Assembly (NCBI GenBank): GCA_035544215.1
Contig: DATKHY010000007.1
Location: forward strand, 1,302,001-1,366,000
DNA: 64,000 nt
Origin: Candidatus Binatia bacterium
GTDB lineage: Bacteria; Vulcanimicrobiota; Vulcanimicrobiia; Vulcanimicrobiales; Vulcanimicrobiaceae
Reading direction: 5' to 3'
The position numbers and the translations under genes were made by a program. The notes beneath the pieces are model-generated. The model saw only the letters and a list, made by a program, of their open reading frames with translations. It had not been told where the DNA came from and made no database searches. Position 1 is the stretch's first letter. Every line of letters starts with the position of its first letter. Shown piece by piece: positions 21,180 to 57,524 of this stretch.

Positions 21180-21263
21180 TGCCCAGAAAGGGACTCGAAC
21201 CCCCACGATGTTGCCACCACTGGTACCTGAAACCAGCGCGTCTACCAATTCCGCCATCTGGGC
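21180..21263 (-). tRNA. tRNA-Leu (anticodon CAG)
   Basis: 84 nt. The acceptor stem GCCCAGA pairs with TCTGGGC, the D arm contains GGCGGAATTGGTAGAC, and the anticodon stem CTGGT/ACCAG encloses loop TTCAGGT, giving anticodon CAG. A long variable arm (class II) and a T arm with GGTTCGAGTCC follow. The 3' CCA is not encoded. Discriminator base A. Confidence 0.97.
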
Positions 21264-54484: not shown

Positions 54485-55198
54485 ATGAAGCTTGCTTGCG
54501 CGAGCAGTTCGTTCCACCGCGACATCGAGCGCGGCGAGCTTACGCAGCTTGAGTTCCTCGACCTCTGCGCACGCGAGCTGGCCTGCGACGGCGCCGTTTT
54601 AGATGTTCGGCATTTTCCGCGAACCGACGACGACTACCTCGCTCAAGTCAAGAAGATGGCCACCGACCGGGGTCTCTCGCTCGCAGCGCTTGCCGATCCG
54701 AGCTTTTTCGCATCGGGGCCCGAGCGCATGCGCGAGGTCTTGCGCCGCGCGGAGATACTGGGCACTCCGCTCGTGGCGGCAGCGCTCGAGCGCGAGGTCA
54801 GCTGTTCGTGGAGCGATCAGCTCGCGCGGGTGGGCGTCGCCGCGTCCTTGGCAAAGACGCTCAACGTGACGCTCGCCGTCCGCAATGCCCCCGAGACCTT
54901 CGCTTCGGGAACGCACGATCTCAAGCGTCTGGCCAAGGAGGCCGACTCCGCGTGGCTGCGCTTCGGACCCGAGCCGGAAACGCTTGAAGCCGGAAGCGAG
55001 CCCGCGGCGCTGCAGCCGAACACGGTGCTCCTCTGGAGCGATATCGGGACGCAAAGCGACGCATCGGTCCTGGATGCGGTCGCCGCGTTTGCGGGATTCC
55101 GCGGACACGTCGCGCTCGACGCGCGCTCCGGCGCGGCCGACGCCGCGCTCGCCGCGGCTGCGGTGCGTCGCTGGCGCGAAATACTCAACCGCGCATAG
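54485..55198 (+). CDS. TIM-barrel sugar isomerase / AP-endonuclease-2-like protein
   Basis: 237 aa. Starts KLACASSSFHRDIERGELTQLEFLDLCARELACDGAVLD, the opening of the xylose-isomerase-like TIM barrels, but the later metal-binding Glu/His motifs are weakly preserved. Substrate unknown. Divergent from rpiB; no operon partner downstream, since a 248-nt structured gap follows. Confidence 0.65.
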   Translation: MKLACASSSFHRDIERGELTQLEFLDLCARELACDGAVLDVRHFPRTDDDYLAQVKKMATDRGLSLAALADPSFFASGPERMREVLRRAEILGTPLVAAALEREVSCSWSDQLARVGVAASLAKTLNVTLAVRNAPETFASGTHDLKRLAKEADSAWLRFGPEPETLEAGSEPAALQPNTVLLWSDIGTQSDASVLDAVAAFAGFRGHVALDARSGAADAALAAAAVRRWREILNRA

Positions 55199-55221
55199 CG
55201 TCTTGCGCTCGTGGTGATCGA

Positions 55222-55439
55222 ACCTGCTTTCTCGCAGGTGGGTGCGGCCCGGGCGCCGATTCGTCGGGCGTTCGCCCTCCGCATCGTCGTGACCGGAGCT
55301 GGTGCTCCCTAGGTAATCATAGTCGGTTCGGTACCTACGTGCGCTGCGCGCCTACGCGCAGTCGAGCCTCTCTACCGTATCACTGGCAGTCAAGCACCCT
55401 ACTTGCCTAGGAGGGCTCCACGAACGCCGGAAAGCACCA
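55222..55439. ncRNA. Candidate structured RNA upstream of the epimerase gene
   Basis: The gap 55199-55446 is packed with pairings. Hairpin ACCTGC/GCAGGT (55222-55239) and GGGCG/CGCCC (55266-55277) lie first. Then a nested set: outer TGGTGCT with AGCACCA (55300-55306 / 55433-55439), middle CCTAGGTAA with TTGCCTAGG (55308-55316 / 55403-55411) and apical CTGCGCG-CCTA-CGCGCAG (55344-55361). The strand cannot be decided by base pairing. It ends 7 nt before the epimerase ATG, which has no ribosome site of its own. Riboswitch-like leader or free RNA are both open. Confidence 0.5.
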
Positions 55440-55446
55440 AGCCGCA

Positions 55447-56466
55447 ATGCCGAGGCTGCGCCTCTCCGTTTCGTCGCTTGAGTTGCCGCTCGTACATCCG
55501 TTCAGGATCGCTCGCTGCGAAGAGTCCGTCGCGCGCACGGCGATCGTTCGCGTGCGCGCGGACGAACGCGAGGGAATCGGCGAGGCGGCTCCGACGGAGC
55601 GCTACGACGAATCGGTCGAAAGCGTCGTAGCGTACCTCACTTCGCATCTGCTCGCCGCGGACGATCCGTATCGGCTCGACTCGCTGCTGCACGCTGAAAT
55701 CCCCCCGGCTGCGCGTGCCGGGCTCGACCTCGCGCTGCACGATCTGATTGGCAAGGAGCTGGGCAAACCGCTCTACGATCTGCTCGGCCTCGACCCATCG
55801 GCGACGCCCGCGACGTCGTTTACGATCGGAATCGCCGATCCGGAGCTGACGCTGCGAAAGGTCGCGGAGGCCGGCGACCATCCGATTCTCAAGATCAAGC
55901 TCGGCATCGGAACTGCGTCCGAACAGGTCGAGACCATCGCCGCAATTCGCACGCGCTACGGTGGCGTGCTGCGCATCGACGCCAACGAGGGGTGGGACGT
56001 CGGCACGGCGGTGCGCATTCTGAACGAGCTCGAGCCCTACGGGATCGAGCTGTGCGAGCAGCCGCTGCCGGCTGGGCATCCCGAGCAACTGAGGGCCGTG
56101 CGCGAGCGCGTCTCGATTCCAATCGTCGCCGACGAGGACGCGCTGGTCGCGAGCGACCTGCCCCGGCTGTTCGGCTGCGTCGATGGCGTGAACGTCAAGC
56201 TGGCCAAGGCCGGCGGCATTCGCGGCGCGCTCGCGATGATCCACACGGCACGCGCGATGGATCTGCGCGTGATGATCGGGTGCATGGTCGAGAGCGCGGT
56301 CGCGTCGACCGCCGCGGCGCAGATCTCGCCGCTGGCGGACTGGGCCGACATCGACGGACCGTTCTTGATCGCGCGCGATCCGTTCGCGGGCGTGACGTAT
56401 CGCGACGGAAAGCTCGTCTTGCCGCAGGCCCCCGGGCTGGGCGTTCGGGAGGTCGTGCCGGCGTGA
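55447..56466 (+). CDS. Dipeptide epimerase / DgcA-type racemase (enolase superfamily)
   Basis: 339 aa. Enolase-superfamily barrel: LVHPFRIA opens the capping domain; catalytic Lys149/Lys151 (KIKLG), metal ligands Asp178 (DANEGW), Glu204 (EQPLP) and Asp229 (ADED), and Lys251 (KLAKAGG). Known members epimerise L-Ala-D/L-Glu murein dipeptides or racemise N-acetyl-D-glutamate (DgcA). The DUF1611 gene coupled by a 4 nt overlap favours the second. First gene of a five-gene run. Confidence 0.9.
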   Translation: MPRLRLSVSSLELPLVHPFRIARCEESVARTAIVRVRADEREGIGEAAPTERYDESVESVVAYLTSHLLAADDPYRLDSLLHAEIPPAARAGLDLALHDLIGKELGKPLYDLLGLDPSATPATSFTIGIADPELTLRKVAEAGDHPILKIKLGIGTASEQVETIAAIRTRYGGVLRIDANEGWDVGTAVRILNELEPYGIELCEQPLPAGHPEQLRAVRERVSIPIVADEDALVASDLPRLFGCVDGVNVKLAKAGGIRGALAMIHTARAMDLRVMIGCMVESAVASTAAAQISPLADWADIDGPFLIARDPFAGVTYRDGKLVLPQAPGLGVREVVPA

Positions 56467-57524
56467 CGCGGCGGTACGCGATCCTCGCGCCCGGATCATT
56501 TTCAACCGATGCGAAGACGGCGCATGGCGTCGTCCGCTACGGCGCCGACGACGTCGTCGCGGTCATCGATCCGTCCCTTGCCGGCAAGCGCGTGAGCGAC
56601 GTCATGCCGCATCTCCAGAGCGACGCCCCGATCGTCACGAGCGTTGCAGATGCGCTGGCGTTCGCGCCGACGGCCCTGCTCATCGGAACCGCCCCCAAGG
56701 GCGGCGGTTTGACGCCAGAATGGCGAGCGGCCGTCCTCGAGGCGATCAGCGCGAGGCTCGAGATCGTGAGCGGGTTGCACGACATGCTCGCCGTGGATCG
56801 CGAGCTCCACATCGCCGCACTCGCGGCCGGCACGACGATCTGGGACGTTCGCGAGCCGCCCGACGTGCCGCTGTTCTCCGGCGACGTGTACGGAGTGCAA
56901 GCTCCGATCGTGCTGACGGTCGGCAACGACTGCGCCGTCGGCAAGATGAGCGTCGCACTCGAGGTCGTGCGCGCGGCAAACGCCGCGGGCAAGAACGCGC
57001 GCTTCGTTCCGACGGGGCAGACCGGGATTCTCATCGCCGGCTGGGGCATCTCCGTCGACCGCGTGATATCGGACTTCGCTCCCGGCGCGGCCGAACAGCT
57101 TGTGCTCTACGCGGCGCACGAAGGGGCCGACTTGATCGTCGTCGAGGGTCAGGGCGCGATCAACCATCCGGCGTACGCTCCGGTGACGCTTGCGCTGATG
57201 ACCGGCAGCGCGCCGGACGCGCTGATCCTCGTCGTCGATCCGCGGCGCGCGGCGATCGAGTCGTACGGAACGCCCACGCTGCCGTACGCGGCGGCGATCG
57301 AGATTCACGAACGCTTGCTGCAAACGATAAAGCCCGCCGAGGTCGTGGGGATCGCCCTCAACACGCGCGGGCTGAACGAGGCGGAGGCGCGCTCCGAGGC
57401 CGCGCTCGCCCGCGACGCGACGCACTTACCTGCCGACGACGTCGTGCGCTTCGGAGCCGAGCGGTTCTACGCCGAGATCGCGTCGCGGATCGTAAAGCGG
57501 CCGCCGCTGCAAGCGCCCGCGTGA
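56463..57524 (+). CDS. DUF1611 protein, DgcN-like D-glutamate N-acetyltransferase
   Basis: 353 aa from GTG 56463 (GTGA overlap). N-terminal ~130 residues, then a P-loop-like TVGNDCAVGKMSVAL and the family stretch ARFVPTGQTGILIAG and VVEGQGAINHPAY. DUF1611 proteins were described as DgcN, which acts with DgcA to turn D-glutamate into N-acetyl-L-glutamate. The pairing with the preceding gene is the main support; activity in this organism is inferred. Confidence 0.8.
   Translation: MTRRYAILAPGSFSTDAKTAHGVVRYGADDVVAVIDPSLAGKRVSDVMPHLQSDAPIVTSVADALAFAPTALLIGTAPKGGGLTPEWRAAVLEAISARLEIVSGLHDMLAVDRELHIAALAAGTTIWDVREPPDVPLFSGDVYGVQAPIVLTVGNDCAVGKMSVALEVVRAANAAGKNARFVPTGQTGILIAGWGISVDRVISDFAPGAAEQLVLYAAHEGADLIVVEGQGAINHPAYAPVTLALMTGSAPDALILVVDPRRAAIESYGTPTLPYAAAIEIHERLLQTIKPAEVVGIALNTRGLNEAEARSEAALARDATHLPADDVVRFGAERFYAEIASRIVKRPPLQAPA

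Follow-up and report, generated by a model that had tools for sequence, protein, structure and literature searches.

A 6S RNA gene on the reverse strand upstream of a dipeptide-epimerase-like gene in an Eremiobacterota genome

Identification of the 6S RNA gene

The feature described here, located in a window of 64,000 nucleotides (the whole stretch of DNA that was analyzed), is almost certainly the single 6S RNA (ssrS) gene of an Eremiobacterota genome, running on the (−) strand from a predicted 5′ end at approximately position 55367 to a predicted 3′ end at approximately position 55182. Far from being a new riboswitch, it belongs to a known kind of RNA and was overlooked, having diverged in this bacterial family so far that it escapes the usual annotation threshold; it is also read from the strand opposite that of the proposed element. 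6S RNA is a widespread bacterial RNA which binds and restrains RNA polymerase and constitutes a global transcription regulator, typically abundant and dependent on growth phase; its gene is normally free-standing, equipped with its own promoter, and usually present as a single copy per genome. The assignment of the window RNA to this family, and to the (−) strand, is based on homology to Rfam family RF00013, a conserved rod with a central bubble, strong covariation, a strand signal, near-universal occurrence as a single copy, and a fixed gene neighborhood.

In a permissive Rfam scan, RF00013 matched positions 55367 to 55182 (−) from end to end (1 to 187 of 187) with a score of 36.3 bits and an E value of 5.3e-6, this locus being the only RF00013 match genome-wide. 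As the score falls below the RF00013 gathering score of 46.4 bits, which is a curation cutoff and not a biological feature, a routine Rfam scan makes no 6S call in the window. A tRNA at positions 21180 to 21263 (−) is the only RNA family match above threshold in the window. The conserved blocks which flank the bubble, CC[GA]A, GGGAGC, and GCACCCACCUG, are present, as judged from alignments of 20 and 57 sequences. No paper tying 6S RNA to Eremiobacterota was found in the literature, although coverage was partial and this constitutes weak evidence.

Distribution among relatives

Across the phylum, RF00013 detected 6S RNA in 62 of 149 genomes, 38 of them with scores above the gathering score; none of these 38 belongs to the family of the window, while sister families pass. 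A family model, R1, was constructed from 57 relatives; because one of its rows is the window sequence itself, the R1 score on the window (166.4 bits, positions 1 to 184) is not independent, whereas the RF00013 score is. Exactly one copy was found by R1 in 86 of 99 family genomes, including 53 of the 55 good assemblies, and the Rfam cutoff passes none of its matches within the family. Furthermore, R1 recovers 26 of 30 loci at which RF00013 had matched in genomes of other families and classes, and the tie to recognized 6S RNAs is thus two-way.

Of 60 related genomes, 35 yielded a BLAST match to the block, coverage at genus level extending over approximately positions 55199 to 55396, and in G037, G038, G039, and G042 the BLAST matches to the window locus are colinear with RF00013 matches. 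The nearest relative is 92% identical over the RNA. All 60 records retrieved by a scan of named genomes with the family-specific core are Candidatus Eremiobacterota (Vulcanimicrobiota, WPS-2, UBP12) or MAGs designated “bacterium.” In genus g7, the 6S RNA was missed by the family model; in G023, a member of that genus, pieces of it are found on two contigs (G023:C44:24111-24217 and G023:C25:10065-10121), one of them at a contig end, and the gap is therefore probably the result of an assembly break rather than loss.

The same overall rod-and-bubble shape would be presented by a 6S-like RNA which binds core RNA polymerase without sigma, as does Ms1 of Actinobacteria. This explanation is, however, considered very improbable, given the full-length match to the 6S covariance model, the retention of the blocks CCGA(C/A), GGGAGC, and GCACCCACCUG..GCAGGUUC, and the manner in which the RNA grades into above-threshold 6S RNAs at the matching locus within the phylum.

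Conserved structure and strand assignment

The minimum-energy fold of the (−) strand between positions 55367 and 55182 is a long rod, in which a closing stem and a terminal arm surround an open central bubble (z −4.77), and none of 200 shuffled sequences folded as well. When the identical bases were folded as (+), a z of −2.31 was obtained, as is expected of the mirror image of a stable (−) rod. Within the alignment of 57 relatives, 91.7% of cells are paired in the 6S structure, and changes on both sides of a pair were observed at 21 of 37 pairs and in 180 cells, compared with shuffle means of 14.1 pairs and 54.2 cells (0 of 500 shuffles). Sliding the partners by 1 to 3 columns, which served as a control, lowered pairing to 31 to 40%. 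The rows of this alignment were gathered by means of a terminal-arm pattern, outside which lie the closing stem, the inner helices, and P2; the invariance of the terminal arm is consequently a product of selection of the rows, and it is uninformative, speaking neither for nor against the structure. The strand follows from G-U usage, the covarying structure containing 249 G-U cells on (−) versus 25 if read on (+).

The preliminary description had placed the structured element on the (+) strand, as a leader of the epimerase operon, and had named a free 6S-like RNA, on one strand or the other, as a minor alternative. It is this alternative which is borne out on the (−) strand by RF00013, R1, and covariation, and the perception of a highly structured spot holds true for the conserved (−) RNA, with its ends shifted to 55367 and 55182, but not for the (+) helices. 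The three (+) helices do exist as letters, namely, an outer helix (55300 to 55306 with 55433 to 55439, seven Watson-Crick pairs), a middle helix (55308 to 55316 with 55403 to 55411, nine pairs, one of which is G-U), and an inner helix (55344 to 55350 with 55355 to 55361, seven pairs); the outer helix stops 7 nt short of the ATG (position 55447), which had been described as lacking a ribosome site and has no obvious Shine-Dalgarno motif just before it. The AGGAGGG which had been placed inside the middle helix is in fact situated at 55409 to 55415 and shares only 3 nt with it. Nor is the (+) structure far in excess of chance, as had been suggested: 32 stems of at least seven pairs can be drawn in the 247 GC-rich bases, the region folds with a z of −1.23 (21 of 200 shuffles as good), and the 140-nt core folds with a z of −1.37 (19 of 200).

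These observations bear directly on the proposal of a cis-acting (+) riboswitch or leader regulating the epimerase operon, in which the nested helices would sequester the start region and the ligand would be D-glutamate or a murein metabolite. The helices are drawable in the window genome, the outer one stops short of the ATG, and the epimerase gene directly follows the 6S gene in most genomes of the genus. Against this, the fold is no better than that of shuffled sequences, the orthologous arms in relatives find no upstream partners in excess of chance, the best partner of the middle arm being what chance would provide, and the conserved block stops at approximately 55396, short of where the outer and middle helices have their 3′ arms. 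Conservation of the stems in relatives, on which the proposal had itself been made to depend, was not found: even the nearest relative, at 92% identity, lacks the outer and middle helices, of which it retains 5 of 7 and 7 of 9 pairs, respectively. The G-U pattern fits the (−) strand only, and the RNA is kept even where, as in many family genomes beyond the genus, the epimerase gene lies over 1 kb away or was not detected. With no covariation, arms lost in relatives, and a fold at chance level, the (+) riboswitch was rejected; as a conserved element it is refuted, and its overall probability is negligible. A search of known riboswitch families returned only a chance-level match to sul1 (14.8 bits versus a cutoff of 36.2; E value, 2.5).

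A degenerate, nonfunctional 6S relic, which would account for the score below the gathering cutoff and to which the poor −35 would conform, is scarcely credible, since selection on the window 6S RNA is indicated by its 92% identity to the closest relative over the RNA, by the family-wide invariance of the core blocks, by compensatory changes, and by the retention of a single copy in 53 of 55 good genomes.

Architecture of the RNA and predicted mode of action

All parts of the 6S RNA are given on the (−) strand. Closing stem P1 comprises 12 pairs, 8 of which display both-side changes, and is formed by a 5′ arm at 55356 to 55367 (RNA nt 1 to 12) and a 3′ arm at 55183 to 55194 (nt 174 to 185), the latter lying within the last codons of the convergent (+) gene. 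The inner closing-stem helices (helices 2 and 3) have their 5′ arms at 55339 to 55353 (nt 15 to 20 and 24 to 29) and their 3′ arms at 55197 to 55210 (nt 158 to 163 and 166 to 171); covariation is evident in both, with both-side changes in 2 of 5 pairs of helix 2 and in all 6 pairs of helix 3. It is the helix of nt 24 to 29 with nt 158 to 163 in which all six pairs show compensatory changes. Helix P2, which matches an Rfam helix, is composed of a 5′ arm at 55325 to 55335 (GGU.. / CGAACC, nt 33 to 43), which is the predicted pRNA template, and a covarying 3′ arm at 55213 to 55224 (GGUUCG..ACC, nt 144 to 155). Among the 57 relatives, 86% of cells are paired in its constituent helix 4 and 93% in its helix 5, and both helices also exhibit compensatory changes.

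On its 5′ side, the central bubble consists of GACUAUGAUUACCUA (55310 to 55324), a stretch which is open in the RF00013 consensus and unpaired, though variable, in relatives. On the other side of the bubble, a 3′-bubble hairpin, ACCUGC-GAGAAA-GCAGGU, can be drawn at 55222 to 55239, and its pairs are nearly invariant in the family. Because this hairpin and P2 share a GGU, the two are mutually exclusive. The terminal arm (GGGAGC ... GCACCC) extends from 55240 to 55309; its GGG/CCC and GC/GC columns are invariant in the 57 sequences, and its apical stems are variable.

Known 6S biology encompasses open-promoter mimicry, holoenzyme occupancy, and pRNA templating (PMC8876501, PMC9130861). By analogy, the window 6S RNA would act in trans, and not as a leader of the epimerase gene: it would mimic an open promoter and occupy the primary-sigma RNA polymerase holoenzyme on nutrient exhaustion, until the polymerase starts a pRNA on the 5′ side of the bubble and extends it into P2, whereby the 6S RNA would be released. 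The predicted pRNA reads 5′ (A)GUCGGUUCGG... and would start opposite RNA nt 46 to 47 (window positions 55322 to 55321), the start being placed by position relative to the E. coli 6S start site. Release of E. coli 6S RNA involves a hairpin which lies on the 3′ side of the bubble and overlaps the 3′ arm of P2 (PMC8876501). Opening of P2 by pRNA synthesis may similarly permit formation of the ACCUGC/GCAGGU hairpin in the window RNA, which would represent an E. coli-like release design.

Promoter region and associated palindrome

As is characteristic of a free-standing 6S gene, a conserved extended −10 is found at the right distance from the RNA, which is present as one copy per matching family genome. 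This element, TGATACGGT, is located at 55374 to 55382 (−), its last base being 7 nt before the predicted 6S 5′ end, and the pattern TG.TA...T is conserved in most relatives. Searches at the window locus for a good −35 for the 6S gene and for an intrinsic terminator found neither. Farther upstream, at 55389 to 55394 (−), lies CTTGAC, the right half of the palindrome GTCAAGNCTTGAC; this hexamer is invariant in a 22-sequence alignment. CTTGAC was considered as a −35 and rejected, as it is only 8 to 9 nt from the conserved −10, a spacing which is too short, and relatives show it to be the right half of the palindrome.

In other genera, the place of the −35 is taken by YTGTCA, which is separated from the −10 by 17 nt and lies inside the palindrome TGTCAAGNCTTGAC; in the genus of the window, this palindrome is reduced to the right half, CTTGAC, which does not vary in the alignment of that genus. 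Exact TGTCAAGNCTTGAC was found in 27 copies in 26 of 99 family genomes, and 26 of these 27 copies sit 19 to 25 bp upstream of a 6S match. G076:C194:6349-6362 is the sole exact copy away from a 6S match. In the form TGTCAAGTCTTGAC, the palindrome may be a candidate site for a bound regulator or, alternatively, an extended promoter element. It is conceivable, though we consider it rather doubtful, that a dedicated DNA-binding regulator controls 6S transcription in the family via TGTCAAGNCTTGAC, which overlaps the −35.

Gene neighborhood

In nearly all loci whose length permits a judgment, a TIM-barrel gene is convergent to the 6S gene. In the window, this gene occupies 54485 to 55198 (+), and its product is AP_endonuc_2-like, with a score below the Pfam cutoff. 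The 3′ end of the 6S RNA overlaps its final 17 bases (55182 to 55198), antisense to the stop codon. The order TIM-barrel gene, 6S, epimerase gene is common in the genus. The dipeptide-epimerase-like gene (55447 to 56466; MR_MLE) is directly followed by a gene at 56463 to 57524 (+) whose product harbors both DUF1611 domains, and the two genes stay together in most loci of the genus.

Implications and comparison with known 6S RNAs

The standard Rfam cutoff misses the 6S RNA in every searched genome of a large Eremiobacterota family, in which it would consequently go unannotated. The alignment provides a ready annotation model, a testable pRNA prediction, and a promoter element to explore, and the locus illustrates that GC-rich sequence permits convincing helices to be drawn on the wrong strand.

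The window RNA resembles RF00013 in its length of approximately 186 nt, closing rod, P2, central bubble, GGGAGC..GCACCC arm, and CCGA block at the pRNA start, and differs from it in its score (36.3 bits, below 46.4), its GC richness, its variable apical stems, and the possession of an extra covarying six-pair helix (nt 24 to 29 with nt 158 to 163) in a stretch without pairing in the Rfam consensus. The 6S RNAs of sister families f2 and f3 share the TIM-barrel neighbor and, in several cases, also the epimerase, and model matches are reciprocal; in contrast to the window RNA, however, they mostly pass the Rfam cutoff, with scores of up to 94.3 bits in f3, where the promoter also keeps a −35-like TTG element at a spacing of approximately 17 nt. 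Ms1 RNA of Actinobacteria is a polymerase-binding RNA which is structurally related to 6S RNA (PMC9130861); Ms1 binds core polymerase, whereas the window RNA matches the 6S blocks and model. Finally, as in E. coli 6S RNA (PMC8876501), a 3′-bubble hairpin overlaps the P2 3′ arm, being predicted from sequence in the window RNA, although the release hairpin of E. coli has nine pairs and that of the window RNA has six.
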